This document shows, in pieces, positions 2 through 19,313 of a DNA stretch of 19,319 nt. How positions within the stretch are numbered: position 1 is the first letter of the stretch; every line of letters begins with the position of its first letter. The translations under genes and the position numbers were made by a program. Where the stretch lies: the NCBI GenBank assembly GCA_031255975.1, contig JAIRRM010000074.1, positions 1-19,319 on the forward strand. The letters are read 5' to 3'. Below the pieces are notes generated by a model that worked only from the letters and a program-made list of their open reading frames with translations, was not told the DNA's origin and made no database searches. The DNA comes from Propionibacteriaceae bacterium (lineage in GTDB: Bacteria; Actinomycetota; Actinomycetes; Propionibacteriales; Propionibacteriaceae).

Positions 2-553
2 CCGCCCAGCAAACACACGCAACAACCATCCATCCGCCCCGACTTCGCCATTCTCAAAGAAATCGACGACCAAATCGACGAATGGACACCAGCCGCATTC
101 CTGACAGAAAACCCCGACACCCCCACCACAAACCCAGACTTCATACCCACCGAACCATCCACCGCGCCTGGAGAATCTGAGCCTACAAGGCTGAGACGTA
201 AACCACCCAAATGCCCGGAGCAAGACAACCCCGGCTCGGCGGAGCCACCCTCAGACTGGAACAATAGCTGCCTGGGGTTGCTCACGCGCTGGACGGCAAT
301 TCTCGGCTGGGGTTTTACAATTCTGATGTGCGTCGCCTTCGTAATAGGTGACCACTACGATGACCTGGGAGCTTGGGTGACTATAACCATTACCGGCGCG
401 CTGACCGTCGGGGCCTCCTGGCTGAGTTGGCGTGGTTCGCATGGCCGTCTTCCCCCTACCCCGCCGCGGATCCAACAGATATTGGAAGCTATCTCCGCTG
501 TTGCGACGCTGGCCATCGCGGCCGCCGTTATCATCGGCTACATCTTCGCCTGA
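2..553 (+). CDS. C-terminal part of an unknown membrane protein (5' end outside window)
   Basis: The frame starting at base 2 is open from the window edge to the TGA at 551-553, so about 183 residues of a longer protein are visible. The first ~80 residues are hydrophilic and rich in Pro, Thr, Asp and Glu. Three hydrophobic stretches follow: around AILGWGFTILMCVAFVIG, around WVTITITGALTVGASW, and the last 20 residues (ISAVATLAIAAAVIIGYIFA), which end the protein. A Pro-rich, Arg-containing loop separates the second and third. This suggests a cytosolic N-terminal domain with a small C-terminal membrane bundle. I do not recognise a family. An internal ATG at 278 would start just before the first helix, but the acidic upstream frame is continuous and reads like protein, so I take the ORF as a truncated longer gene. 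The downstream neighbours are remnants of other genes. Confidence 0.6.
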   Translation, partial: PPSKHTQQPSIRPDFAILKEIDDQIDEWTPAAFLTENPDTPTTNPDFIPTEPSTAPGESEPTRLRRKPPKCPEQDNPGSAEPPSDWNNSCLGLLTRWTAILGWGFTILMCVAFVIGDHYDDLGAWVTITITGALTVGASWLSWRGSHGRLPPTPPRIQQILEAISAVATLAIAAAVIIGYIFA

Positions 554-704: not shown

Positions 705-770
705 TTAAGAGTTGGGTGTAGCGGGACTCTCCGGTGCCGTGAAAACCAGGATGTCTCCGGGTTGCACGGC
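705..770 (-). pseudogene. Fragment of an XRE/HTH_26-type repressor C-terminus (copy 1)
   Basis: On the minus strand 21 codons followed by TAA read AVQPGDILVFTAPESPATPN and a final S. The QPGDILVF motif is characteristic of the end of small Cro/C1-type (HTH_26, YozG-like) regulators. It matches the longer fragment at 5488-5625 (AVQPGGILVFTAPE, similar tail), including about 40 nearly identical bases. Upstream on the minus strand the match stops abruptly at 770, where the plus-strand sequence becomes the C-terminal part of the paralogous surface-protein family. No start codon or DNA-binding helix is left, so this cannot be a functional regulator. Confidence 0.6.
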
Positions 771-1037
771 ACCGGATGCGCGTCCCCTACGGAAGCCGGG
801 TTCTCCCATCAAAATGGCGAAGCCGCCGTGGCGAACTGCATCACTGGGGCCACCTTGCTGTACGCCGATCTTCCCTCGAACACCACCGGGCCAGCCCTGT
901 TGGCGCTTGATATCAATGGACTATCGTCTTGCGGTGTCTTCCGCTACACCGCCGTCGATTTCGCGCTACGCGCCATGGACCCCTTCTCCGAGGAAGTGCT
1001 GTTCGACACTCCGTTACTCACTTATGACGTGCCTTGA
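768..1037 (+). pseudogene. Truncated third member of the tandem paralogous membrane/surface protein family
   Basis: The plus-strand frame ending at TGA 1035-1037 encodes about 89 residues that align with the last ~90 residues of the full-length paralogue at 1142-3214. Shared landmarks are GTGCAxPT, xxCxxxATLLY, LSSCGxxxYTxVDFAxRAxDP and EVLFxTPLLxYxV. This is only the last part of ectodomain 3; the cytosolic, membrane and first two ectodomain parts (about 600 residues) are missing. The homology begins at the GGC at 768-770, exactly where the minus-strand XRE fragment ends. The frame stays open upstream to about 432 but shows no family similarity there. The 104 bases after the stop closely match those after the first full-length copy. 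I read it as a deletion remnant of a former tandem array. Confidence 0.75.
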
Positions 1038-1131
1038 TGCTAATGATCCCCAGACACCCTATGCTGAGATCCCCTCGGAATACTCTGCCACAGCTACGGA
1101 CATGGCTCGGCGGTTGGGTACAGCCAGTTAG
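1024..1131 (+). CDS. Possible 35-codon ORF overlapping the truncated paralogue (copy 1)
   Basis: ATG at 1024 lies 12 bases before the TGA of the upstream family member, in the +1 frame relative to it. The frame runs 35 codons to TAG at 1129-1131, ten bases before the next family gene. The product would begin MTCLDANDPQTP and end DMARRLGTAS. The same ORF recurs in the second spacer (3201-3308) with identical length, start, stop and overlap. The 11 base differences are 4 synonymous and 7 non-synonymous, so there is no clear sign of purifying selection. The overlap would suit translational coupling. The DANDPQTP opening faintly recalls variant leucine-rich-repeat proteins, so it may instead be a decayed gene start. 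It could also be an accident of the duplicated spacer. Confidence 0.25.
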   Translation: MTCLDANDPQTPYAEIPSEYSATATDMARRLGTAS

Positions 1132-1141
1132 GTAGAAACTT
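1038..1141 (+). repeat. Spacer repeat, copy 1 (104 bp) between family members
   Basis: This spacer separates the truncated family member from the first full-length one. It aligns without gaps to 3215-3318, which is also 104 bp, with roughly 87% identity by eye. It contains most of the 35-codon ORF and ends in a weak Shine-Dalgarno-like GGTAG before the ATG at 1142. Together with the matching sequence on either side it shows that the unit of duplication was gene plus spacer. Confidence 0.85.
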
Positions 1142-3214
1142 ATGAGTCTCGACGGTGTTTATCCGACAGTCGACGTACGGTTCTGCGCCCCTCCGGGCTG
1201 GGAATGGCCCCACACTGCGCAGTTGCCACGCCCGCTCTGGGCACCCGACCCCGCCTGGCCATCGGCTCCTCCAGGATGGGTGTTCTACCGAGACACCACC
1301 GGCAACCCGGTGCCGACCCCTTCGGGTGCCTGGCTACCGCCCGGTGGGTACGTTCAACAATCGCCAACCCCATCTGGCTCCATTTTTGCTGTCCAGAGCG
1401 CTGCTTGGCCACCGCCCACATCCCCACCATTGGCACCACCTCCACCCACCATCGGCACCGCTTCCACACCCACCGGACCGCCCATCGTGCCCCAAACCCC
1501 ACGAACCGTGCCACCGTCAAGGCCAGATGCAAGAGTCACTCGACACCGACGCCGGGGCGCGGCCCAGTCCAGCGGTGGGGTAGCAACTGTACCGGGCCCC
1601 CAGTATCCACCTCCCAGCCTTGCCTCCCGGATCGGCTCTGGCCCCCTCGCGCTGTTCTTGGGGACGACGGGACTGCTGCTCATATGCTTGAGCCGCTACA
1701 CCTCGACCCCGTTTTATTACGTCCAAGGTCAAATCCCATTGGTTTCGCTGAGGCTCAGTGCACTGGGGGTGCTGCTGGTCTTCGGAGGTTTATATGCCTT
1801 CAACGCAACGCTGCGAAATCAGGGGGGCAAGTCGCTCAATCCCGTTATCTTCGTAGTGACACTGGGTCTGGGGGTGGCTTTCATGGTCGCCAGCATCACC
1901 GGGTTTATCGTAAGTCGGCGTACCCCAGATTACTCATCTCTCCCCTCGCCGGTACAGGCTAAGAACCCGGTTAAGGAGTGCGGCGACGGCCCAATATGGC
2001 ACCAAGAGGATGGGCTGACCATCCGATACCAGCGGCTTGATGTCCAATACTTCGGTCCCGCGCTAGCGACTTCTGAATACCCGGCGACAATCTCCGTCAC
2101 TCTCTGCATCGATAACTCATCTTCCAGTTTCATAGAGTTGCGGGGAAACACCGCCACTTCGTCCATCATCACGTATGGGGAAAACTATGGCGCGTATTCG
2201 TTTCCTGCCATGTCGCGCGGCCTGGCGGCGTACAAATTGCAATTCTCCGGCCTGCCCGCCGAACCGCTACAGTTCGACTGGTTGTCTTTGACCCTCCACC
2301 TCCACAATGAGACATTGGGCACAAAACGCATTCTGGGGCCGTTCGATGTGCCGCTATCCACCCCGTTATTGATCTCCCCACCGCGTTATGACCCACCCAG
2401 CGTCACTCCACAGGTCATCCTGGACACCCCAGAGCTGACTCTCACCGTCATCGGCTTGACGATCCAGGAGTACAGCGTAGAACTGAAAGTGCGGGTGGAA
2501 AACCGCACCGGCGAGCCGGGTGACATCCTCCCGAGCATTTTTGAGGAGGGCTCTATCAGCGGACTTAGCGCGATGCTGGGACACACGGAAATCACCGCAG
2601 CGCCCGAATCTCAGGTCGTACTGTCCGTTACGCCGCGTTACTCGGCTGACCCTTGGGTCACCCCAACGCTGGAACGCATCACCGATATCGCTTTCACATT
2701 CGACGCGATGTTTGGGATCAGGAGTTCCGGGTTGAGCCTGTCGCATAATCAGGTATATATACAAACCTCGCATTTTGGCCAAACGGAGACGCACTACACG
2801 GTGTCGGGCGACGAACTTTTCCGAAACGAATCCTTCAGCGTCACCGGTACCGGAGCGAGCATCCATGTCGGTGGCGAACTGGACGTGTATCTAATGTTCG
2901 AGAACCGCAGCAGCAACTTCATATGGTTCACCCTCTGTACCTGGGATGGCACCGGGTGCGCGCCTCCCACCGACTTCATTAGGAGTGAATCAGGGATAGC
3001 TATCGTGAATGGCTGTGCCGTCGAAGCCACACTGCTGTACAACGCGCTTTCCCCGAATACTATCGGATTTGACGATGTGCTGTTCAACCCAGACGCGCTG
3101 TCATCCTGCGGTATCTCCCACTACACCACGGTAGATTTCGCGGTGCGTGCCATAGACCCCATATCTGGCGAGGTGCTGTTTGAAACTCCGTTACTCAGTT
3201 ATGGCGTGTCTTGA
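1142..3214 (+). CDS. Three-helix membrane protein with Trp/Pro-rich cytosolic N-terminus and large ectodomain (paralogue A)
   Basis: This 690-residue protein has an unknown function. Residues 15-50 hold a Trp/Pro motif region with PPGW at 17-20, PDPAWP at 35-40 and PPGW at 43-46. I recall similar PDPSWP/PPGW segments near the N-termini of other actinobacterial membrane proteins. A Pro/Ser/Thr-rich linker (~55-160) follows, then three transmembrane segments at about 168-184, 200-220 and 234-257, which would put the C-terminus outside. The exterior part appears to hold three beta-rich modules (~278-405, 418-545, 550-690). Each contains a strand with the pattern V-x-V-x-V/C-x-(D/E)-N, for example VTLCIDNSS, VRVENRT and YLMFENRSS. 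Cysteines 280/322 and 599/606/625/656 could form disulfides. ATG 1142 is chosen because its first ~50 residues match paralogue B. A tandem duplicate follows at 3319. A role as envelope sensor, adhesin or binding protein is only a guess. Confidence 0.85.
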   Translation: MSLDGVYPTVDVRFCAPPGWEWPHTAQLPRPLWAPDPAWPSAPPGWVFYRDTTGNPVPTPSGAWLPPGGYVQQSPTPSGSIFAVQSAAWPPPTSPPLAPPPPTIGTASTPTGPPIVPQTPRTVPPSRPDARVTRHRRRGAAQSSGGVATVPGPQYPPPSLASRIGSGPLALFLGTTGLLLICLSRYTSTPFYYVQGQIPLVSLRLSALGVLLVFGGLYAFNATLRNQGGKSLNPVIFVVTLGLGVAFMVASITGFIVSRRTPDYSSLPSPVQAKNPVKECGDGPIWHQEDGLTIRYQRLDVQYFGPALATSEYPATISVTLCIDNSSSSFIELRGNTATSSIITYGENYGAYSFPAMSRGLAAYKLQFSGLPAEPLQFDWLSLTLHLHNETLGTKRILGPFDVPLSTPLLISPPRYDPPSVTPQVILDTPELTLTVIGLTIQEYSVELKVRVENRTGEPGDILPSIFEEGSISGLSAMLGHTEITAAPESQVVLSVTPRYSADPWVTPTLERITDIAFTFDAMFGIRSSGLSLSHNQVYIQTSHFGQTETHYTVSGDELFRNESFSVTGTGASIHVGGELDVYLMFENRSSNFIWFTLCTWDGTGCAPPTDFIRSESGIAIVNGCAVEATLLYNALSPNTIGFDDVLFNPDALSSCGISHYTTVDFAVRAIDPISGEVLFETPLLSYGVS

Positions 3215-3308
3215 TGCTAATGACCCCCAGACACCCAATGCTGAAATCCCCTCGGAACACCCTGCGGCAGCTACGGACATGGCTCAGCGGTTGGGTATAG
3301 CCAGTTAG
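3201..3308 (+). CDS. Possible 35-codon ORF overlapping the end of paralogue A (copy 2)
   Basis: ATG at 3201 is 12 bases upstream of the stop of paralogue A and opens a 35-codon frame ending at TAG 3306-3308, ten bases before paralogue B. The predicted peptide begins MACLDANDPQTP and ends DMAQRLGIAS. It is hydrophilic, has one Cys, and shows no signal peptide or membrane segment. Length and overlap are the same as in the copy at 1024-1131. At the end of paralogue B the equivalent ATG (5391 region) runs into TAG after two codons, so the ORF is absent there. No Shine-Dalgarno is evident; expression would have to be coupled to the upstream gene. It may be non-functional. Confidence 0.25.
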   Translation: MACLDANDPQTPNAEIPSEHPAAATDMAQRLGIAS

Positions 3309-3318
3309 GTAGGAAATC
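3215..3318 (+). repeat. Spacer repeat, copy 2 (104 bp) between paralogues A and B
   Basis: This is a gap-free counterpart of 1038-1141. It ends with GGTAGGA, a slightly better Shine-Dalgarno than in copy 1, about six bases before the ATG of paralogue B. No terminator hairpin is visible in either copy, so the family genes are probably co-transcribed. Confidence 0.85.
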
Positions 3319-5409
3319 ATGAGTCTCGACGGTGTTTATCCGACAGCCGACGTACGGTTCTGCAGCCCTCCGGGCTGGGAATGGCCCTACACTGCGCAGT
3401 TGCCACGCCCGCTCTGGGCACCCGACCCCGCTTGGCCATCAGCCCCTCCGGGATGGGTTTTCTACCGAGACTCTGCTGGCGTCCCGGTGCCGCCCCCCTC
3501 GGGTGCCTGGCTACCGTCCAACAGATCCACCCAACAGCCACCACCCCGAACCGGTTCCGCTTTTGACATCCAGCGCGCCGCTTGGGCGCCACCCACGTCC
3601 CCGCCGCAAGTGCCCCATTCACACACCACTGATCCCATTTCTGTATTCGCCGAGTCGCCTACCGTGCCCCAAGGGGCCGTACCAGTTGCGCTTCGGGTAG
3701 TGCCACCGCCAGAGGTGGATGCAAGCACCACCTGGGATCAAAACGCGGCACAACCCAGCGACATGATAATGGCTACGCGAAGAGCCCAAGAACGCTTCGC
3801 CTCCCAAGTCGGCTCCGGCTGCGCCGTGATGCTGCTGCTGCCGCTGGGGCTTCTGTGCGTATGGGCAGCTTTGCAACTCCCATTTGAGTTCCACGCCGAT
3901 GAAACCGGGCGAAACCCCCTGTTTCCGCTGTTTCTCGGCGCGCTAGGGGTATCGATGGTTATAGGGGGGCTATCTGTCCTCAAAGGAATACTGCGAAACC
4001 CGGCTGCCAACTTCCCGACTCTCGCTATCCCCACGGTGGCACTGGTTCTTATAGCAGCCATCGTTGTCGCCAACATCATCGGGTTTACCGTGGGCGGTCG
4101 TGCCCCACACGCCCCGGTTTCCTATCCCCCATGGGTACAAGCCCGGTACCCGGTCAAGGGCTGCGGCGACAGCCCGGCGCTACATCAAGAAGATGGCCTG
4201 ACCATTAGATATCAACGCCTTGACGTGCGATACTTCGGAGTAGGGACGCTATTCGGAAGAATGCGAAACCAATATCAAGCGCTGATCACCATCGTTCTCT
4301 GTGTGGATAACTCATCCTCCACGCCGGTGGAATTGCATGTAGACAACGTCACAGCACCTTTTATCGCGTCGGGGACGGTCTTCGAAGCCCACTCATTCCC
4401 CGCCATGTCGCGTGGTCTGGCGGCGTATGGCTGGCGGTTCTCCGGCCCGCCCGCCGAACCGTTATCGCTGGACTGGCTGTCTTTGACCCTCAGCCTCACC
4501 GACGAGACACTGAAAACGACCCGCACCCTGGGGACGTTTGATGTGACCCTACCCGACCCGCTACTGCTCTCCCCACCACACTACAACCCACCCAGCATCA
4601 CCCCACAGGTTATCCTGGACACCCCGGCACTGACCCTCACCGCCACCGGCCTGACGCTCCAAGACGACAGCGTAGATCTGAACGTGCAGGTGGAAAACCG
4701 CACTGGCAGGACGTGCACTATTAGTTCTGCCTATCTGCACGAAGCCAGCATCAGCGGGCTTAACGCAGAACTGCAAGACGCACAGATCACCGCAGCGCCT
4801 GAATCTCAGATTACGTTGAGCGTTACGCCGTCTTCGCTTTGGAACCTGTACTCCCCCGCGCTGGAACATATCACCGATATTGCCTTCACGTTCCATGTGA
4901 TGGATGCATCCGGGACGCTTGAGTCAGTGCCGGAGTATAACCGGGCACATGTACAGACTTCGCACTTTGGCCAGGTGGAAACGAGCTATACAGTGCCCGG
5001 TGATGAGCTTTTCGCAAATGAATCCCTCACCGTTTTCAGTGCCGGAGCGGACATCGGTGTCGGCGTCTTGGACGTGTACCTGGTGTTGGAGAACCACAGC
5101 GATTACACCTTGGAGTTCACTCCCTGTGCCTGGAACGGCATCAAATGCATGCCTCCCACGCGCTACCCCAACTATGACCCGGGGATAGTCATGCTGGATG
5201 GCTGTGTCATCGAAATGGACACGTTCCACTCTGCCTCCAGGCTTTACCTGAATAGCGTTGGGCTCATCACGTTGCACCTGAATCGGGAGGCACTATCGTC
5301 TTGCGGTGCCTCCCACTACACCAAGATAGATTTCGCCTTACGCGCCACAGATACCTTTTCCGGCGCGACGATAGCCGAGACCCCACTGCTCAGCTATGAC
5401 ATAGCTTAA
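3319..5409 (+). CDS. Three-helix membrane protein with Trp/Pro-rich cytosolic N-terminus and large ectodomain (paralogue B)
   Basis: This 696-residue tandem duplicate of paralogue A has an unknown function. The first ~50 residues are almost identical to A (PPGW at 17-20, PDPAWP, PPGW at 43-46), with about 94% DNA identity over the first 150 bases. The Pro-rich linker (~55-160) and the three transmembrane segments (~165-185, 201-221, 232-258) have diverged strongly. The ectodomain regains similarity: CGD near 282, EDGLTIRYQRLDV, FPAMSRGLAAY, DTPxLTLT, ITAAPESQ, QTSHFGQ, LSSCG and TPLLSYDI. The middle module has an extra Cys (RTCTISS) absent from A. The gene ends in TAA and is followed by a minus-strand XRE fragment rather than another copy. 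The pattern of conserved cytosolic motif with variable linker and helices suggests a shared intracellular partner, which is inference. Confidence 0.85.
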   Translation: MSLDGVYPTADVRFCSPPGWEWPYTAQLPRPLWAPDPAWPSAPPGWVFYRDSAGVPVPPPSGAWLPSNRSTQQPPPRTGSAFDIQRAAWAPPTSPPQVPHSHTTDPISVFAESPTVPQGAVPVALRVVPPPEVDASTTWDQNAAQPSDMIMATRRAQERFASQVGSGCAVMLLLPLGLLCVWAALQLPFEFHADETGRNPLFPLFLGALGVSMVIGGLSVLKGILRNPAANFPTLAIPTVALVLIAAIVVANIIGFTVGGRAPHAPVSYPPWVQARYPVKGCGDSPALHQEDGLTIRYQRLDVRYFGVGTLFGRMRNQYQALITIVLCVDNSSSTPVELHVDNVTAPFIASGTVFEAHSFPAMSRGLAAYGWRFSGPPAEPLSLDWLSLTLSLTDETLKTTRTLGTFDVTLPDPLLLSPPHYNPPSITPQVILDTPALTLTATGLTLQDDSVDLNVQVENRTGRTCTISSAYLHEASISGLNAELQDAQITAAPESQITLSVTPSSLWNLYSPALEHITDIAFTFHVMDASGTLESVPEYNRAHVQTSHFGQVETSYTVPGDELFANESLTVFSAGADIGVGVLDVYLVLENHSDYTLEFTPCAWNGIKCMPPTRYPNYDPGIVMLDGCVIEMDTFHSASRLYLNSVGLITLHLNREALSSCGASHYTKIDFALRATDTFSGATIAETPLLSYDIA

Positions 5410-5487
5410 GGCTGGCAACGCCCCGCCACCCCTGAGACCAGACGCTGAAAGCGCTCGTGAAATATCCTGAGGCAACCCGTCGGTGGT

Positions 5488-5625
5488 TCAAGAGGTGGGC
5501 GTAGCCGAACGCTCCGGTGCCGTGAAAACCAGGATGCCTCCGGGTTGCACGGCGAGTTCGCGGCAGATGGCCTCCAAGGTGGAGAACCGTAGCGCTTTGG
5601 CGCGGTTGTTTTTACGATATGCCGC
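5488..5625 (-). pseudogene. Fragment of an XRE/HTH_26-type repressor (copy 2)
   Basis: On the minus strand 45 codons are open from just after a TGA (5626-5628) to the TGA at 5488-5490. They read RKNNRAKALRFSTLEAIC, then RELAVQPGGILVFTAPE. This is the second half of a small Cro/C1-type regulator: the end of the recognition helix, the STLEAIC helix and the QPGxILVF C-terminus (HTH_26/YozG-like). The first half of the domain is missing, and a stop lies just upstream with no nearby start, so it is a remnant. Its last 20 or so residues match the shorter fragment at 705-770. The two fragments therefore bracket the paralogue array, and an intact regulator probably once sat opposite the end of a family gene. 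Confidence 0.7.
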
Positions 5626-8903: not shown

Positions 8904-9995
8904 TCAACGCTGCTTGAAATAGCGGAAAAGGTGCTGCTCCTGCGTCAGCAACACCGCAGTGCCTGCTCCTAAAAGCACGGCTATTCCGGCGCAACTCGCG
9001 GTTCGCAACCCTGGGTACCAAGAAACCCAAAACGGGTCAGGGTTCCCGATACTCGCGGCCATTCCCAGCGCCGGGGCCAGCGACAACCATGCCAAAGCCA
9101 CCCACACGCATGTCTCCAACCCCACCTGTGCCAGCAGCGAAGCCTTATCCATCCCGGCGTGTAACGCCGCAGCCAACTCCAACCGCCGCACCCGCACCAT
9201 CGCGAAACCCAGTACAGCACCCACCCCAATGCCCGCAAAGGTGAGCGGCCATACCGGTTCGGCGGCAAGCCTGCGCTCGGCGTCAAAACTGATGCCAAGG
9301 GTGGTGTTCAGTTGTTGCGGGCGCGGCATATCGCTGGCGTCACGGAATCCAGCGGCCTGCCACGGCAGCGTAAGCAAGGCGAACGCGCCATCATTTTCCG
9401 GCCAAACACGCACCCAGCAAGCGTCGAACATCCCCAGCGCTGGAACTGGGGAGATCAGGGTGTACGAAAGCACCGGCAGCCGCCCGTCCGATGGGTACGC
9501 GAACACCCCAGTGGTGTTGAGGCTGACACCGGCGACAAGTGGCAGCAGGGCGGGTTCGTCATCCACGCCGAGCACCTCGGCCAACTCCTCAGCGAGCCAA
9601 ACCCCCCAAGCGGTTGTTTCGGCGGTAGTGGCGACGGAAAGCACCTCGCCCAATCCGGGGGTGGCTTCGAAGGTATGCAGCGCGGTGGTAGGCAGCGCGG
9701 CCAACCGCACGTCCGGCCCCTGCCGAACGGCTCCAGCGGCAGCAATACCGGGGTACGTGGCCAGCGCATCGCACTGGGCACCGTTGATGCGCCCGGTCGC
9801 AGCGAGCACCTGAACACTCGCTCCCGAATTGTCGAAACGCACCGCCTGTTGCGCCACCGCGACCAAAACACGCACCTGCAACAGCCCGATACCACCGACC
9901 AGCGTCATGAAAACCCCCAGGGCAACGAACGCCCTAGTCGTACCGGAACTGATATTGCGCCAGGCCTCAACAGCCACATCGCGGATACCAATCAT
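8904..9995 (-). CDS. ABC transporter permease, MacB/FtsX type
   Basis: This 363-residue membrane component belongs to a MacAB-like exporter. An N-terminal helix (~20-42, AFVALGVFMTLVGGIGLLQV) is followed by a large extracytoplasmic domain of about 200 residues in the MacB_PCD position. Three C-terminal helices follow (around WPLTFAGIGVGAVLGFAMV, CVWVALAWLSLAPALGMA, and CAGIAVLLGAGTAVLL), ending in a short basic tail. This is the usual FtsX-like layout. The ATG at 9995 overlaps the TGA of the ATPase gene as ATGA, so I prefer it to the longer frame from 10043, which would run back into the ATPase. It is the last gene of the three-gene operon. The substrate cannot be inferred; macrolides, lipids and peptides are all known for this class. 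Confidence 0.88.
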   Translation of the reverse strand: MIGIRDVAVEAWRNISSGTTRAFVALGVFMTLVGGIGLLQVRVLVAVAQQAVRFDNSGASVQVLAATGRINGAQCDALATYPGIAAAGAVRQGPDVRLAALPTTALHTFEATPGLGEVLSVATTAETTAWGVWLAEELAEVLGVDDEPALLPLVAGVSLNTTGVFAYPSDGRLPVLSYTLISPVPALGMFDACWVRVWPENDGAFALLTLPWQAAGFRDASDMPRPQQLNTTLGISFDAERRLAAEPVWPLTFAGIGVGAVLGFAMVRVRRLELAAALHAGMDKASLLAQVGLETCVWVALAWLSLAPALGMAASIGNPDPFWVSWYPGLRTASCAGIAVLLGAGTAVLLTQEQHLFRYFKQR

Positions 9996-10609
9996 GCCGA
10001 CTCGTTCAGCGCATAAGTGGCGAGGTCGTATTCGATGGGGCAAGCGACACGGGTGTCGGCGTCATGGGTGGCCACCACCACGATGGCATCGGCCAACGCA
10101 AGTTCGCCAAGCACACTGTTCACCGTATGGGCGGCGCTACGATCAAGTTGCGCCGTGGGCTCGTCCACCAACAACAGCGATGGGGCTTTCGCCACGGCGC
10201 GCGCCAGCATCAACCGCTGCGCCTCTCCGCCAGAAAGCGCCGCAAACGGACGATCAGCAACCGTCCCCAGCGCGAAGCGCTCCATGATGGCGTATGCCTC
10301 GTCTTCGGCGACGCTACGAGGAGCACCTTTGGCAAGCAGCGGCAACGTCACATGATCCAACGCGGTACGCCCAGGGGTGCCATGCGGATTCTGGAACACC
10401 CAGCCGACCGACTCGATACCGTGCCACTCTACGGTGCCGCTAACCGGCACCTCCCACTTCGCCAGCAGCGAGAGCAGGGTCGATTTTCCGGAGCCGGACG
10501 GCCCGGTGATCGCCACCAAATCCCCGGCGTTCAAGGTGAAGCCGAGGCTGGTGAAAAGCACCCCGGTTCCGGGGAATGAATGTGACAGGTCACTAACTAT
10601 TACCTGCAT
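9992..10609 (-). CDS. ABC transporter ATP-binding protein, MacB/LolD-like
   Basis: This 205-residue ATPase drives the exporter. Walker A is GPSGSGKST (36-44), the Q-loop is near FQNP (72-75), the signature is LSGGEAQ (125-131), Walker B is LLLVDEP (145-151) and the switch histidine is in THD (181-183). All key residues are present. It is slightly shorter than the ~220-230 usual for LolD/MacB ATPases, with a brief stretch between Walker A and the Q-loop. The start overlaps the end of the adaptor gene by 10 bases and the stop overlaps the permease start by four, so all three are translationally coupled. Confidence 0.95.
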   Translation of the reverse strand: MQVIVSDLSHSFPGTGVLFTSLGFTLNAGDLVAITGPSGSGKSTLLSLLAKWEVPVSGTVEWHGIESVGWVFQNPHGTPGRTALDHVTLPLLAKGAPRSVAEDEAYAIMERFALGTVADRPFAALSGGEAQRLMLARAVAKAPSLLLVDEPTAQLDRSAAHTVNSVLGELALADAIVVVATHDADTRVACPIEYDLATYALNESA

Positions 10610-11652
10610 GGCGCGGCATCCCTCGGCCTGACCAACACCGATTTAGGCAGCGGATCAGCACGTATCAGCGTCTGTCCAAACTGAGAGGCAACCACTTGCA
10701 CCAAGGAGGGTTCCCCATCCGCCAGCACGCAGCCCTCGGCACCGGTCAGGTCATACAACGCCGATGCCGGTACGGAGACCACACTCACCGGTTCTACGAG
10801 CCGCACCGTCACGTTGAGCTGACTGGTAGCACCGGACTGGTATTCGGTGAAACTGCGAGTTCGGACAAGCATCGCTAAAAACTCCGCATCGGTGATAACG
10901 CCGGAATCCGGCACCGGGGTGGTGGTGTCAACGCCGACGACAGCCTCTCGCGCACCAGGTAACGCGGCAGGGGGAAGCTGTAAGGTGATGGCGTCCAACC
11001 CCACTCCAGCCCGAAACAGCATCTGACCAGGCAGGGCCTGATCCCCGAGCGCAGCGGAACACGACGACACCACCGCCTCTGGGGTGGGCAACCAGATCAG
11101 TGACGAAATGGGGACGCTACGGCGATTTGCCACCCCCAAACCAGCCCACAACGCCCGCAACGCATTACCGGTGGCGTTATTGAAATAGCCGTCTGCGCTC
11201 ACATCGGTGTAGCCAAGACGTACCAGTTCGGTTTCCAACGAGGCCACATCATCACCACGCGCACCCACCTCCAGGTCACGCCATAACGGCACGTCAGTGT
11301 GTAACAACAAAATCGGTTCGTTGTTGATAACGAATGGGGCTTGACCAGAGGCCACGATGTCACCGGGGGCGCAATCGGCGCGGCGAACCACGCCGTAAGT
11401 GGGAGAGAACGCGTCGTATTCGCCGGAAAGCTCCGGAGCGGTGGCCACCTGCCGTTCATCTGCATAACTGGTTGTGACGACCGATACGGTGGCGTCCGGG
11501 TCGGCCTGGTTCATCCACGCCGGTTTCGGAGTCGGGATGAGCAACAACGTCGCCAGTGACCCAAGAGCCAACCCGGCCAACCCAACCAGCGCCACAACAC
11601 GGCGACCGGCGGGGAACTTCGCCGACAGCTCGGTGCTGTTTACGGAAACCAT
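10600..11652 (-). CDS. Membrane-anchored adaptor protein with peptidoglycan-binding domain (MacA-like partner of the ABC exporter)
   Basis: This 350-residue protein has an N-terminal anchor or signal helix (~18-40, RRVVALVGLAGLALGSLA then LLLIP). A short beta-rich hairpin region carries PTYGVVRRADCAPGDIVASG, as in membrane-fusion-protein families. A peptidoglycan_binding_1-like domain follows (~125-175: VGARGDDVASLETELVRLGY, then DGYFNNATGNALRALW). Adaptor-like beta domains make up the rest. I chose ATG 11652 (MVSVN) over the frame opening at 11787 because it is just before the anchor and has GGATGAGG upstream. The PG-binding domain suggests the exporter is fixed to the wall, a variant common in Gram-positive MacAB-like systems. 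Confidence 0.85.
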   Translation of the reverse strand: MVSVNSTELSAKFPAGRRVVALVGLAGLALGSLATLLLIPTPKPAWMNQADPDATVSVVTTSYADERQVATAPELSGEYDAFSPTYGVVRRADCAPGDIVASGQAPFVINNEPILLLHTDVPLWRDLEVGARGDDVASLETELVRLGYTDVSADGYFNNATGNALRALWAGLGVANRRSVPISSLIWLPTPEAVVSSCSAALGDQALPGQMLFRAGVGLDAITLQLPPAALPGAREAVVGVDTTTPVPDSGVITDAEFLAMLVRTRSFTEYQSGATSQLNVTVRLVEPVSVVSVPASALYDLTGAEGCVLADGEPSLVQVVASQFGQTLIRADPLPKSVLVRPRDAAPCR

Positions 11653-11835
11653 GCACCTCATCCTAAGCGCTACCGGCAACAGATCATGAAGCAGCTGCAA
11701 CCGAACGACACTGGCAAGGTAACAGCTACGTTTAACGCTTGGCTTATTTGGCGGATTCACTATTCGCATCTTTGCCATCAGCGCCATCTTTACTGAACGA
11801 AACCCCCACCCGTCACGGTATGGGGCTCGCCGGAT

Positions 11836-11912
11836 GTTTTCGGATGCGCGACCGCCACGTCTTTATCCACCAGCAGCCTAAAGGTGCCTGCGGCGGACTG
11901 TGGTACCAATCG
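11836..11912 (+). repeat. Imperfect direct repeat flanking the ABC exporter operon, copy 2
   Basis: This is the counterpart of 8758-8835, in the same orientation, and lies between the start of the adaptor gene and the next gene on the plus strand. The ends GTTTTCGG and TGGTACCAATCG are perfectly conserved. The alternative GTG start of the following gene (11900) lies inside this repeat, one reason to reject that start. Confidence 0.55.
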
Positions 11913-11929
11913 TCGGTAGGCTGGGGCAC

Positions 11930-12628
11930 GTGAATGGCGACACCACGAGCTTTTTGGTATCTCTGGAGCCCTTCCTTTTCATCGCAGCCATAGTCGCAGT
12001 TATCGTATTTTTCGTCGTGCGGAACCACAGGCACCGCGAAAAGCTCCGGGCCTTCGCCGCCGCCAACGGCTGGACCTATACCGAACGCGATAACTCACTG
12101 ACACGACGCTGGCGCGGGCAACCCTTCAGAAGCGACGGTAGCAACACGGCCTCTGATGCCTTTCGGGGGTATTTCGGGCCGCAGCAGTTCCCCTTTGTGG
12201 CGTTCACCTACAGCTACACCCCGCAGAACTCCAAAGGCAATAGCACCTCCACCACCCACCATTACGAGGTGTGCGTGTTACGCATCGGATGGGCGTTGCC
12301 GTACCTGCATGTCGGCCGCGAGGGCCTGCTGACGAGGGTGCTGCGATTCCTAGGCGAGCAGGACATCGACTTCGAATCAGATGACTTCAACCGCGCCTTC
12401 CTGGTTCAGAGCACCGATCCGCGATTCGCGTACGGCGTCATCCATCCGCAGTTGATGGAGTGGTTGCTGGGGCCGGGGCGCATTCTGGCACCGTGGCGCA
12501 TCGACGGTGCCGACCTCATCACGTACGGGGTCGGGCGGTTGGACATACAGAGCTTCCCAAATAAGCTGCAAGCCATGACCGCGTTGGTGAACCAGATTCC
12601 ACAGCACGTCTGGGACGATTATGCATAG
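11930..12628 (+). CDS. Uncharacterised membrane protein with one N-terminal helix, paired with LemA
   Basis: This 232-residue protein has one transmembrane helix (~12-30, LFIAAIVAVIVFFVVR) after a short extracellular N-terminus. A basic NHRHREKLRAFAA boundary and a large cytosolic domain follow. Conserved-looking stretches are AANGWTYTERDNSLTRRW, FPFVAFTYSYTP, HHYEVCVLRIGWALPYLHV, DFNRAFLVQSTDPRFAYG, HPQLMEWLL and VNQIPQHVWDDYA. I recognise this as a family common in actinobacteria beside lemA, resembling DUF3137-type proteins, with no known function. GTG 11930 is chosen over GTG 11900, which lies in the flanking repeat; neither has a strong Shine-Dalgarno. lemA follows 193 bp downstream. Confidence 0.8.
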   Translation: MNGDTTSFLVSLEPFLFIAAIVAVIVFFVVRNHRHREKLRAFAAANGWTYTERDNSLTRRWRGQPFRSDGSNTASDAFRGYFGPQQFPFVAFTYSYTPQNSKGNSTSTTHHYEVCVLRIGWALPYLHVGREGLLTRVLRFLGEQDIDFESDDFNRAFLVQSTDPRFAYGVIHPQLMEWLLGPGRILAPWRIDGADLITYGVGRLDIQSFPNKLQAMTALVNQIPQHVWDDYA

Positions 12629-12634
12629 TGGACA

Positions 12635-12757
12635 CCGCACGAACACCGCGCTCACAACGCCGAGCAGCTCTCCGCCCCGTCACTCCGGCCTCCGAGCCGG
12701 AATCCCCGCACGAACACCGCGCTCACAACGCCGCGCAGCTCTCCGCCCCGTCACTCC
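12635..12757 (+). repeat. Two copies of a 52-nt element upstream of lemA
   Basis: Bases 12635-12686 and 12706-12757 are identical except for one position, with a 71-base period. The element begins CCGCACGAACACCGCGCTCA and ends TCTCCGCCCCGTCACTCC. The 19 bases between them contain GGCCTCCGAGCC. The repeat fills most of the gap between the one-helix protein and lemA. Its role is unknown; it could be part of a dispersed repeat family. Confidence 0.85.
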
Positions 12758-12821
12758 CCGGCGACAGGCGTGAGGCGGGTTCGCAGTAGCCCAGGTGTTT
12801 AACGCATAAGGAGGTCGCGTC

Positions 12822-13382
12822 GTGTTTCTCAAGATATTGCTCATCGTTTTAGTCGTCGGTAGCGTCACCGGCTGGGTCGTGATAATCCATAATCGTTTCG
12901 CCGCGCTCTCCAATTTGATCGCCGAATCCTGGCGGCAGGTGGACGTAGAGTTGCAGCGACGCCACGATCTGATCCCCAACCTGGTGCAGGTGGTGTCAGG
13001 ATATGCCGCACATGAACGGGCATTGTTCGAGGGGCTGATCGCGGCACGGACGCAGGCGCTGGCGGTACACACCCCGGCGCAGTTGACCGGCCCCGAAACC
13101 GCTTTGGAGTACGGGGTTGGGCAGGCGCTGGCAGTTGCCGAGGCGTACCCGGAGTTGAACTCCTCCACCCACTTCTTGCGCTTGCAGCACGAGCTACGCA
13201 ACTGCGAAGACCGTATCGCCGCAGGGCGGCGCTTCTACAACGGAAACGTACGGGCGCTCAACACCCTGAAAGACTCGTTCCCCGCCGGACTGCTGGGTGG
13301 CGGCACCAAGCGCGGCGAATACTTCATGCTGGATTCTCCAGCGGCCCGGCTGCCGCTACAGTTGCAGTTCCCACAGAGATGA
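12822..13382 (+). CDS. lemA: LemA family protein
   Basis: LemA proteins are widespread membrane proteins of unclear function with a helical-bundle domain. The 186 residues have one N-terminal helix (~3-22, LKILLIVLVVGSVTGWVVII) and then the family signature NLIAESWRQVDVELQRRHDL, followed by IPNLVQVVSGYAAHE. The family's C-terminal features are present as CEDRIAAGRRFYNGNVRALN and NTLKDSFPAGLL. The GTG at 12822 has a strong AAGGAGG seven bases upstream. The gene is convergent with murB, separated by 88 bp in which I see no clear terminator. Confidence 0.93.
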   Translation: MFLKILLIVLVVGSVTGWVVIIHNRFAALSNLIAESWRQVDVELQRRHDLIPNLVQVVSGYAAHERALFEGLIAARTQALAVHTPAQLTGPETALEYGVGQALAVAEAYPELNSSTHFLRLQHELRNCEDRIAAGRRFYNGNVRALNTLKDSFPAGLLGGGTKRGEYFMLDSPAARLPLQLQFPQR

Positions 13383-17108: not shown

Positions 17109-19313
17109 TCACCACAGGCGACGAGTACGGACGGCGAGGCAGCCCCCGGCAAGAGCGAACAGCAGCAAGATTGCCGGAACCGCGCCCATCCCCGTGGCCA
17201 GCGAACCGCCAGTGGGCACCGCCGGGATGTCGTCACCACCGGTTTCGTTATCGTTGGCCGGGGCTGAAACCACTACGGTGTGCGAAATCGTCACCACTCG
17301 CTCGTCGTCGAACACATAGACCACATCGAACGAATAGTCACCCTCGTCCAAACCGGTGGCGTCGAACACCACCTCCGAGCCGACAACAGTTGCCGATCCT
17401 TGCGACGGCGGGACGCTCACTTCACGCGACACCACGCTAGCCCCGGAACCAATGCGGGGATCGTTAAACACTGCGGAGCCATTTTCGGCACTCACGCTGT
17501 CTGAAGACGAGGCGTTCCAATGCGCGACCAACACCGACCTACCCGGTGTAGGCACAAACCCCGTTCCGGCAGACAACAGATCATCCCCAGGCACACCCAT
17601 GACGCTCCAGCCAGAGAACCCCCAGTCGAAACCATCCCCCATGGCATCCACCGGGCCTGGCAATGTCATCGGCCCAAACGACCACGTGGTGAAATCCAAA
17701 TTGTCGTATCCGCTCCAAATCGGGGGCACTCGCTTCGTCACCGATTCGCCCGCGTTCGCGCCCGGCAACTCGCCACCGTTCGGGTTAAACACCACCTGGG
17801 CATTCCCCACCAACTGATACGACTCGCCATCCGCACCCCACGCGGTCGCCGTGTCGGAGTCGGCACCCGACCACAACCATGGCAATACGCCGCTCTCATC
17901 ACCCACTTCCAGCAGCGTGATATCGGCCCCCAGCGGTGCCGTCACCGTCAGCGGCTGATCTGTGGAAAACATGAACTGCCGCAATGCCACGGTGCCAGTA
18001 CCGGAAACACCCTGGTAGAAAGCCTGGGTACCGATCCGCAGTTTCTGCAAACCAGCGGGAAACACCACCGACTCCAATGACGTGGAACCGCCGCCTAAAG
18101 CGACCTGGGCGAATGCGATATCTCCGATAGTCAACTCCTGCAAGCTATTCGGAAACACCACCGAACTCAGTAGCGCGTCACCATTACCGGAAATGGTCTG
18201 AGCGAACGCGCCACTTCCGATAGTCAACTCCTGCAAGCCATCCAAAAACACCACCGAACTCAGTAGCGCGTCACCACCATCGCGAACATCCTGCTCGAAC
18301 GCACCCTCACCGATCTTCAACTCCGGCAAGCCGGCGGGAAACACCACCGACTCCAATGATGCGGAACCACCGCCAAGAACCAACTGAGCAAACGCATACC
18401 TGCCAATCTCAACCGTCTGCAAACCGGCGGGAAACTCCACCGACTTCAACAACGCGGAACCACCACCGTGAACCACCTGAGCGAACGCGGTACGATCAAT
18501 TCTTAACGTCTGCAAACCGGCGGGAAACTCCACCGACTTCAACGGCGCGTCACCACCATCGTAGACGCTCATGCCGAACCCGTCAGCTTCGATAGTCAAC
18601 GTCTGCAAACCGGCGGGAAACTCCACCGACTCTAACCGCACAACACTACCGCTGGTGGCGTATCGCTGGAACGCTCCGCTGCCGATAGTCAACGTCTGCA
18701 AACCGGCGGGAAACTTCACCTCAGCCAGCGCAGCGACACCACCATCGACTTCCTGTACAAACGCTTTGGCGCCAATGGTCAGCGTCTGTAAACCATCTGG
18801 AAACTTGATCGAACTCAGCAGCGTATCACCGGCACCGATGGCTTCCTGAGCGAACGCACGGTCTTCGATGGTCAGCGTCTGTAAACCGGCGGGAAACACC
18901 ACCGACTCCAGCGGTGCGGAGTCATCCCCGGAAAGAAGACCCTGGCGAAACGCTCCTTCGTTGACGGTCAGTGCCTTCACCCTGGATTCGGTCTGCCGGA
19001 ACTCCACCGAAACCAGTTGGACGGCACAAGACGAAGCCGAATTGCTGCCGACGATCACCTCGGTGATCTCCTCGTCCAGTTTGTCCAAATCGATCACCAG
19101 TCGGGTTTTGCCGGGGTCTTCATAAGCCACACTTGGCTCGGTGGCGGCGCATAACGCATTGTTTCCGTACGTGTGTGACGCAGCCGCCGATGCCGTCGGC
19201 AACCCCACAACCCCCACTACCGCCAGCGACAACGCCAGCAAACCCAACAACACGCGACCCACAAAACCCGCTCTAGAAGAACCAGCTTCAACAGCCCCAT
19301 ACCAAACCTTCAT
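17109..19313 (-). CDS. Secreted BspA-like leucine-rich-repeat surface protein
   Basis: A 734-residue predicted surface protein. The signal peptide has a long n-region, a hydrophobic core (~18-38) and a likely cut after ASA near 43-45. Residues 135-443 are ten 31-residue LRR_5-type repeats with consensus L-x-S-V-x-F-P-A-G-L-Q-x-L-x-I-G-x-x-A-F-x-Q, with divergent half-units at both ends. Residues ~506-600 match an InlB-B/Listeria-Bacteroides repeat (VVFNPNGGELPG ... FSGWSV ... LVAHWN). An Ig-like stretch (~612-683) follows, then a Gly/Pro/Asp linker, a hydrophobic helix (~711-727) and an RTRRLW tail. There is no true LPxTG; PTGGSLATG precedes the helix, so anchoring is by an unusual sorting signal or by the membrane. 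The ATG at 19313 is near the window edge, so the real start could lie upstream. Adhesion is a plausible but unproven role. Confidence 0.85.
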   Translation of the reverse strand: MKVWYGAVEAGSSRAGFVGRVLLGLLALSLAVVGVVGLPTASAAASHTYGNNALCAATEPSVAYEDPGKTRLVIDLDKLDEEITEVIVGSNSASSCAVQLVSVEFRQTESRVKALTVNEGAFRQGLLSGDDSAPLESVVFPAGLQTLTIEDRAFAQEAIGAGDTLLSSIKFPDGLQTLTIGAKAFVQEVDGGVAALAEVKFPAGLQTLTIGSGAFQRYATSGSVVRLESVEFPAGLQTLTIEADGFGMSVYDGGDAPLKSVEFPAGLQTLRIDRTAFAQVVHGGGSALLKSVEFPAGLQTVEIGRYAFAQLVLGGGSASLESVVFPAGLPELKIGEGAFEQDVRDGGDALLSSVVFLDGLQELTIGSGAFAQTISGNGDALLSSVVFPNSLQELTIGDIAFAQVALGGGSTSLESVVFPAGLQKLRIGTQAFYQGVSGTGTVALRQFMFSTDQPLTVTAPLGADITLLEVGDESGVLPWLWSGADSDTATAWGADGESYQLVGNAQVVFNPNGGELPGANAGESVTKRVPPIWSGYDNLDFTTWSFGPMTLPGPVDAMGDGFDWGFSGWSVMGVPGDDLLSAGTGFVPTPGRSVLVAHWNASSSDSVSAENGSAVFNDPRIGSGASVVSREVSVPPSQGSATVVGSEVVFDATGLDEGDYSFDVVYVFDDERVVTISHTVVVSAPANDNETGGDDIPAVPTGGSLATGMGAVPAILLLFALAGGCLAVRTRRLW

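Follow-up and report, generated by a model that had tools for sequence, protein, structure and literature searches.

The window analysed here, a stretch of 19,319 nucleotides numbered from its first letter, carries two complete members and one truncated member of a protein family, lying head to tail on the forward strand. Genes A (1142–3214) and B (3319–5409) are open reading frames of 690 and 696 residues, which are 52% identical over 705 aligned columns and 89% identical over their first 65 residues. Upstream lies the C-terminal remnant of a third member (765–1037, approx. 90 codons plus a stop at 1035–1037), of which positions 765–1031 match residues 602–689 of A with 52% identity (E = 2.6e-20). 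This arrangement, recognised in an earlier sequence-only reading, is borne out by the reading frames and alignments. The same reading had confined the array to 768–5409; the ends of A and B stand, while the remnant starts near 765 and related features lie outside that range (2–553, 703–770 and 5486–5625).

The leftmost of these, a forward-strand frame at 2–553 whose 5′ end is lost at the contig edge, encodes a Pro-rich, acidic linker followed by hydrophobic segments, with no exterior domain, and is possibly a fourth relative. It matches B with a composition-corrected BLASTP E-value of 7e-5 (only 0.15 for A), in an alignment that starts at B residue 66, directly past the head described below. 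The score of its linker was reached by none of 500 shuffles against B and by three of 500 against A; its transmembrane (TM) part gave no alignment with B, and 81 of 500 shuffles reached its score. The other two features are reverse-strand fragments of a Cro/C1-type regulator gene. One (703–770) is fused to the remnant and is 90% identical over 68 nt to 5486–5553; the second (5486–5625) matches Pfam HTH_26 (E = 1.4e-6 on 5491–5625) over profile positions 31–62 of 63, the first half of the domain being absent. No family copy beyond A, B and the remnant was found in the 88.6%-complete genome, although its missing portion and the contig edge next to the array could hold others. Tandem duplication followed by decay of one copy could account for its origin.

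The topology of A and B was predicted from hydropathy and charge alone. The layout that we propose is a cytosolic Trp/Pro-rich head and Pro-rich linker, three membrane helices and an outside part of approximately 413 residues. In A, the head is terminal (residues 14–52, 1181–1297) and is followed by a predicted cytosolic linker (residues 66–160, 1337–1621) that is 40% identical to that of B; the head of B lies at 3358–3471. The three helices claimed earlier are predicted in both proteins as Kyte–Doolittle segments near the linker, at residues 164–182, 198–223 and 235–253 of A (1631–1900) and 167–185, 203–221 and 240–258 of B (3817–4092). B has one more hydrophobic window within its exterior (residues 572–590, mean 1.74 for a threshold of 1.6), with no counterpart in A, and the net charge of its N-terminal part is not positive (10 K+R, 13 D+E). 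The exterior of A spans residues 278–690 (1973–3211) and its counterpart in B lies at 4150–5406. B has counterparts for all six exterior cysteines of A and one extra, in keeping with the conserved cysteines noted earlier. The previously proposed division into three β-rich modules is not confirmed at the sequence level, where no internal repeat was found in the exterior (hhalign Prob ≤ 0.1; six pairwise scores reached by 75 to 415 of 500 shuffles). A Tetraspanin-like identity (PF00335) was considered for A only and rejected, the score of 14.1 bits falling below the Pfam cut-off of 32.1.

The PPGW head and its carriers

Judged by sequence conservation, the Trp/Pro motif is a terminal module of approximately 38 residues that is widespread in actinobacteria, which we name the PPGW head. 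It is not specific to the A/B family and caps many unrelated proteins. A hidden Markov model built from 32 heads, with A and B excluded, scored A at 30.6 and B at 28.8 bits, compared with 13.1 bits for the best of 10 000 shuffles. The consensus has six spaced Trp residues with Pro, and nine Pro/Trp positions are conserved at 98–100% in 123 distinct heads; A and B keep all nine. At the other 12 positions conserved at 80% or more they keep four and depart at eight, including P8 (96%), W14 (91%) and W36 (89%, replaced by Tyr). Since these departures affect 8 of 21 conserved positions, the heads of A and B are atypical.

The head was detected in at least 43 of 296 genomes of the class and at least 42 of 198 of the family, the genome of the window being included in both; these counts, made with a seven-row model (A5) that includes A and B, are lower bounds, with up to 25 and up to 38 candidates scored per genome, respectively. 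The closest sister genomes (G005 and G006) gave no head at E ≤ 0.001. An earlier search of the phylum, with an older model and a stricter limit (E ≤ 1e-4), had found the head in 3 of 296 genomes, while a DNA pattern for PDPxWxxxPxGW matched 6 of 296, three of them (G186, G112 and G341) apparently by chance, judged by frame. A head search of a protein collection yielded one match among 18 candidates. A single scan of named genomes yielded 288 head loci, of which the best 80 were examined. The module is thus common, yet no Pfam model matched it in the carriers scanned, nor did an NCBIfam model in the ten carriers checked, and the literature matches listed for ‘PPGW’ appear unrelated.

Among the best 80 of the 288 loci, 34 encode SNIPE-type nucleases without a TM segment. 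The remaining 46 carriers are predominantly TM proteins: 36 have a hydrophobic segment, compared with 45 of 211 neighbouring frames (Fisher p = 5e-13), and some of the 10 that have none end at contig ends. In a set of 32 carriers (29 loci from 55 class match rows, plus L026, L016 and L017), the head is N-terminal in 26 and C-terminal in six, all six following TM segments; throughout, N-terminal heads were assigned the nearest preceding ATG or GTG as start, and TM segments were sought only in the sequence after that start. The family search added 28 loci, with the core motif readable in 23 and not in five, and Pfam was run on 21 of the 23, leaving out one repeat locus and one short frame. The exteriors of head-bearing TM proteins vary. 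Closest in plan to A and B are single-TM exported proteins of the family (L026, L016/L140, L141, L157, L161 and L162), which share with them an extended head in which GWxFY is followed by a second stretch of Gly, Pro and Trp, a Pro-rich linker, a TM segment and an exported C-terminus. They differ in having one TM segment rather than three and a shorter, different exterior; the A/B exterior matches none of them.

A proposed docking role at the membrane

The head bears comparison with DUF2510 (PF10708): both are short terminal modules rich in Trp and built around a GWxPDP core, and DUF2510 is present in 34 of 37 related genomes. DUF2510 ends in RYWDGxxW; the head, with its four Pro/Gly-Trp repeats, ends in GWxFW. 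The two profiles are weakly similar (hhalign P = 0.0042, Prob 3%; best of 10 column shuffles P = 0.062). DUF2510 was not matched by Pfam in any head-bearing protein scanned, nor by A or B at E ≤ 10, and the literature searched makes no mention of it by name.

Both modules occur on homologues of SNIPE (PD-Lambda-1), which combine DUF4041 with a GIY-YIG nuclease. Among 22 actinomycete SNIPE-type nucleases sampled, 11 carry an A/B-type head, five have DUF2510 at a terminus, one has a TM pair and one TerD, with four others. Two to four of the 22 have none of head, DUF2510 and TM segment, and none was seen to combine two of them; the search for TM segments covered the sequence preceding DUF4041, and Pfam was run on 12 loci, the other 10 genes having been scanned under other locus numbers. 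According to PMC13190303, SNIPE without its TM helix leaves the membrane in E. coli and is toxic, and 34% of homologues lack the helix. This pattern of exchange on the 22 nucleases suggests a membrane-side docking module, and on anti-phage nucleases the head may serve as a membrane address label. A and B themselves lack DUF4041 and the GIY-YIG (T5orf172/MUG113) domain.

We consider it about an even bet that carriers are held at the cytosolic side of the membrane by their head, which would bind a membrane-associated protein partner or the lipid interface, and that the exterior of A and B senses or binds something outside. Two observations favour docking: TM proteins make up most of the non-nuclease carriers examined, and the head of SNIPE-type nucleases occupies the place that a TM helix has in other homologues. 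TM carriers have no need of a membrane address, so for them docking to a partner is assumed. In A and B, the state of the exterior would be passed to the docked head, or the head would set the position of the exterior. More tentatively, the head could be a mobile module that confers a membrane address and can be swapped for DUF2510. It would then replace the SNIPE TM anchor in actinobacteria, and in other phyla by transfer with the nuclease, and gather exterior sensors like A and B and an entry-blocking nuclease at one inner-membrane site. The genome of the window gave no DUF4041 match, so the partner of the head there would differ. If true, this would offer a way to approach DUF2510 and the question of how TM-less SNIPE homologues avoid the host chromosome.

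Two other readings of the head seem unlikely, though each deserves weight. The head could have no membrane role and bind a soluble cytosolic partner, as a WW/SH3-like or chaperone-type Pro-rich ligand, with the excess of TM carriers reflecting actinobacterial fusion habits. The 10 of 46 non-SNIPE carriers without a TM segment fit this, as do three carriers that also match SHOCT and one that is an MzaB-like ATPase. However, TM carriers remain in excess over neighbouring genes, and among the 22 proteins of the SNIPE type, which needs the membrane in E. coli according to PMC13190303, none was seen to carry more than one of the three elements (head, DUF2510, TM segment). A reading that we hold to be no more probable makes the head a direct anchor in the lipid interface, with Trp at the bilayer interface and no protein partner. 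The spaced Trp and Pro residues of the consensus would suit such a role, and in the best 80 of 288 loci all nine carriers not named as Actinomycetota are SNIPE-type proteins, from genomes named Gammaproteobacteria, Alphaproteobacteria, Planctomycetes, Verrucomicrobiales and Gemmatimonas; with heads in non-actinobacterial genomes, no common actinobacterial partner is needed. Against this, TM carriers would gain little from such an anchor.

Orphan exterior and homogenised termini

The claim that A and B belong to no named family is upheld: no Pfam or other model covers either protein, and searches of 5.8 billion proteins with exterior and full-length queries (up to 8000 candidates per search) returned only A and B themselves. 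No exterior relative was found in 95 other related genomes, in plasmids or phages, or, by scans with two short peptide patterns, in named genomes and viral contigs; the best match among PDB sequences (E = 0.73) was disregarded. A check of six other genomes of the genus gave no match even at E ≤ 10. The suggestion that the exterior modules resemble DUF4352 (PF11611) was rejected, as neither a Pfam scan nor a profile of 16 DUF4352 domains matched the exterior (best P = 0.086); one of the 21 family head carriers scanned does match DUF4352, and another carrier (P0005) has the name in its source but no DUF4352 match at E ≤ 1.

Conservation along A and B is uneven, as the sequence-only reading had noted, with amino acid identities of 0.94 over codons 1–51, 0.40 in the linker, 0.41 in the helices and 0.56 in the exterior. 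Comparing the one available pair (Nei–Gojobori), dN/dS is 0.52 overall, 0.87 in the TM segments and 0.46 over the exterior (residues 278–690), where there is no excess of amino acid change. The exterior appears to be under constraint, with its six cysteines kept, and A and B are best described as predicted lineage-specific tandem envelope proteins with an orphan, disulfide-capable exterior. That they are instead decaying or young, functionally marginal frames in a reduced genome we regard as improbable. The failure to find relatives, the remnant and HTH fragments as signs of decay nearby, and the TM dN/dS would fit, but frames of 690 and 696 codons have stayed intact at a dS of approximately 0.7, with dN/dS overall and in the exterior as given above and the cysteines conserved.

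The near-identity of the N-termini has another explanation. It belongs to a homogenised DNA tract present at 1011–1330 (end of the preceding gene, spacer 1038–1141 and head-coding start of A) and at 3188–3507 (end of A, spacer 3215–3318 and head-coding start of B), both on the forward strand. Identity in ungapped 50-nt windows is 82–98% within the tract versus 18–80% outside. The spacers are identical at 92 of 104 nt, codons 1–28 are free of synonymous changes, and within codons 1–26 each of the four bases that differ falls in a codon for a differing amino acid. Because synonymous and non-coding sites are equally frozen across approximately 320 bp, near-identical N-termini are by themselves no evidence for selection on the protein, and the earlier argument from them to a fixed intracellular partner fails. 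A shared, predicted cytosolic N-terminal element still seems likely, though on other grounds than those first given.

It is very doubtful that the family has a fixed intracellular partner of its own and an exterior diversifying in the manner of antigenic variation: the uneven conservation, the truncated extra copy and the recombination tract would suit a recombining array, but the N-terminal identity reaches silent and spacer sites, the exterior is constrained, the head is common to unrelated proteins, and only three copies were found in the genome. Apart from A, B and the remnant of 90 codons, the 88.6%-complete assembly showed no cassette, silent or alternative, for the variable part, and the six other genomes of the genus gave no relative. 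Recombination between the copies would have homogenised the spacer and head-coding start. Near-identical termini of tandem paralogues may, as in this case, reflect DNA homogenisation without protein constraint.

The tandem array and its flanks

The array lies on contig C89 of a 1.61 Mb genome assembled in 212 contigs and comprises two intact reading frames on the forward strand, A (1142–3214) and B (3319–5409), encoding proteins of 690 and 696 aa with 52% identity, preceded by the last approximately 90 codons of a third copy (the remnant; 765–1037, forward strand). These three were the only matches in this genome, which is 88.6% complete. The gene calls for A and B in the protein collection (P0003 and P0004, 491 and 546 aa) start within the transmembrane (TM) and linker regions, and the N-terminal head is left out of both predictions.

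On the right, the array adjoins genes that, from their translations, we take to be rplA, rplK, nusG and secE. It is bracketed by two fragments of a Cro/C1-type helix-turn-helix gene on the reverse strand, sharing a 68-nt repeat (703–770 and 5486–5553, 90% identical). The right fragment (5486–5625) matches Pfam HTH_26, with the repeat copy in the second half of the domain (profile positions 31–62 of 63), while the left copy (703–770) is fused to the remnant. As we read the sequence, the left copy passes directly into the remnant near 765, where both have a short stretch in common, a junction of the kind that a deletion would leave. In G005 and G006, the nearest sister genomes (rplA 92 and 91% identical), the position beside rplA is occupied by a different gene of 538 and 531 codons, presumably related to protein mannosyltransferases, and A/B are absent there. 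The array is therefore lineage-specific as sampled, the six other genomes of the genus being 76–95% complete.

A further open reading frame at the left edge (2–553, forward strand), cut by the end of the contig, has a B-like linker and hydrophobic segments, with no exterior domain. Its alignment starts at B residue 66, directly past the head; its linker scores above all 500 shuffles against that of B, which its TM part fails to do. It may be a fourth A/B relative that has no exterior and whose head lies past the end of the contig; we conjecture that an assembly break at the repeated head would fit this truncation.

Divergence of A and B and the orphan exterior

The sequence-only reading had argued for a fixed intracellular partner from the near-identical N-termini of A and B. 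That argument falls away, as synonymous sites and the spacer are equally frozen along a tract from approximately 1011 to 1330. By Nei–Gojobori counts on this one gene pair, codons 1–28 show 0 differences on 19.8 synonymous sites and codons 1–51 a pS of 0.13, compared with a pS of 0.48 (dS 0.77, dN/dS 0.46) for the exterior; dN/dS is 0.53 for the linker and 0.87 for the helices. At a pS of 0.48, we calculate the chance of zero change on 19.8 independent sites as approximately 2e-6. The four base differences in codons 1–26 each fall in a codon with a changed amino acid. The 104-bp spacers are identical at 92 positions, and ungapped 50-nt windows are 0.82–0.98 identical throughout the tract, dropping on either side. 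Since the tract runs across gene end, spacer and gene start regardless of boundaries, it indicates recent duplication or gene conversion. Constraint close to translation starts could contribute, although it would leave the spacer and the last part of the upstream gene unexplained.

For the exterior (residues 278–690 of A), no relatives were found in 95 other related genomes, in the remaining six genomes of the genus (E ≤ 10), among the candidates examined in the protein collection, in named genomes or viral contigs scanned by short peptide patterns, or among PDB sequences (best E 0.73). Plasmid and phage searches with full-length A/B yielded no relative, and neither protein matched Pfam, NCBIfam or PADLOC above a cut-off. 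The cysteines described earlier as conserved are indeed so, all six exterior ones of A being present in B. With regard to the three proposed beta-rich modules, sequence and profile comparisons detected neither internal repeats nor a relation to DUF4352.

The PPGW head and its carriers

A profile of the N-terminal 65 residues, containing the Trp/Pro-rich module of approximately 38 residues that we call the PPGW head, found the head once more in the same genome (L026, G000:C132), where it caps an unrelated single-TM protein of 420 aa, and also in two sister genomes. Extended with these and two class-level hits, the model matched at least 43 of 296 class genomes, drawn from 33 of 115 genera, and at least 42 of 198 genomes of the family, the window's own genome included in each case; a scan of named genomes gave 288 head loci, the best 80 of which were analysed. 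Over the stretch compared, the class-level loci L052 and L066 encode the same proteins as L168 (Sporichthyaceae) and L184 (Frankiaceae) from the named genomes, which identifies the class as that of actinomycetes. The consensus from 135 rows (133 carriers plus A and B; 123 distinct heads) reads F-N-P-P-P-G-W-P-x-P-P-x-G-W-x-P-P-x-G-W-x-P-D-P-S/A-W-P-x-x-P-x-G-W-x-F/L-W. Nine positions are conserved at 98–100% and all nine are present in A and B, which differ at eight of the 21 positions conserved at ≥80%, including the second GW. A profile of 32 heads built without A/B scored 30.6 bits for A and 28.8 bits for B, whereas none of 10 000 shuffles of residues 1–65 of the two proteins exceeded 13.1 bits. 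No NCBIfam model covered the head in ten carriers checked. DUF2510, another short Trp-rich module, was not among the Pfam families listed for head carriers in any scan (32, 80 and 21 loci); the two showed a weak profile likeness (P = 0.0042, Prob 3%; best of 10 shuffles P = 0.062).

The head was N-terminal in 26 and C-terminal in 6 of 32 loci read. Pfam matches on these were DUF4041 with MUG113/T5orf172 (10), DUF4328 (4) and Rce1-like, HATPase, GmrSD_C and Excalibur (1 each). Among the best 80 of 288 named loci they were DUF4041 (34), Lipoprotein_Ltp (4), bacterial PH (3), SHOCT (3), Excalibur (2) and single cases of PrsW, Rce1-like, DUF4328, Septum_form and others; 21 family loci gave PrsW (5) and DUF4352, DUF4041, Excalibur, Septum_form and others (1 each). 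In the same best 80, a hydrophobic segment was found in 36 of 46 carriers that are not SNIPE-type nucleases, versus 45 of 211 neighbouring ORFs, and in 0 of 34 SNIPE-type carriers, with start codons chosen by us. All nine carriers in this set not named as Actinomycetota were SNIPE-type (Verrucomicrobiales, twice, Aliidiomarina maris, Pseudohongiella, Robiginitomaculum, Loktanella, Gemmatimonas, Planctomycetes Pla163 and one ‘bacterium’); apart from Aliidiomarina, which was looked up, we assume these lineages from the names. Three are apparently isolates, so binning error is an unlikely source for those three.

L063 carries a head on an MzaB-like ATPase of the MZA anti-phage system (PADLOC E = 1.7e-27; NCBIfam below cut-off), a second defence-related kind of carrier. 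L026, L140, L141, L157 and L161 are exported proteins with one TM segment and an extended head; by eye, they may have in common an exported domain without a family assignment.

SNIPE-type nucleases and a proposed role for the head

DUF4041, taken here to mark SNIPE-type anti-phage nucleases, was found in 22 of the 296 class genomes, and the window's own genome has no match. Eleven of these 22 proteins carry an in-frame head. L267 has only its first part, and at L266 (genome G599) the head (L079) lies upstream in another frame, so that this gene looks broken. DUF2510 scored above the Pfam cut-off on five (four N-terminal, one C-terminal), two hydrophobic segments were present on one, and L256 has a TerD domain ahead of the nuclease (E = 2.1e-36), a candidate further adapter; L258 and L268 have none of these features. 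In E. coli, SNIPE lacking the TM helix relocates to the cytoplasm and becomes toxic through cleavage of the host genome; the helix is missing in 34% of homologues, for which other membrane-targeting N-termini were proposed (PMC13190303). The main text of that paper does not contain the words tryptophan, proline or DUF2510. Given that paper and the distribution over the 22 proteins, it is reasonable to suppose that head and DUF2510 may substitute for the membrane anchor on SNIPE-type nucleases.

For A and B, the comparisons establish membership, layout and carriers; the further steps are a proposal. Both are most likely membrane proteins, the predicted topology placing the head in the cytosol and the orphan part on the exterior, and the head would most likely hold them to a membrane-side partner or surface common to other head carriers.

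Elsewhere in the window, 8904–11787 (reverse strand) encodes an ABC transporter set of a permease-like protein with no Pfam match, an ATPase (ABC_tran) and a protein with a peptidoglycan-binding domain. At 11900–13382 (forward strand), a DUF3137-like protein (below cut-off) adjoins a LemA protein (Pfam). A 734-aa protein at 17109–19313 (reverse strand), with Pfam matches all below cut-off, has a signal-like start, a C-terminal hydrophobic segment and many LESVEFPAGLQTLTI-type repeats, which we take to be BspA-like leucine-rich.
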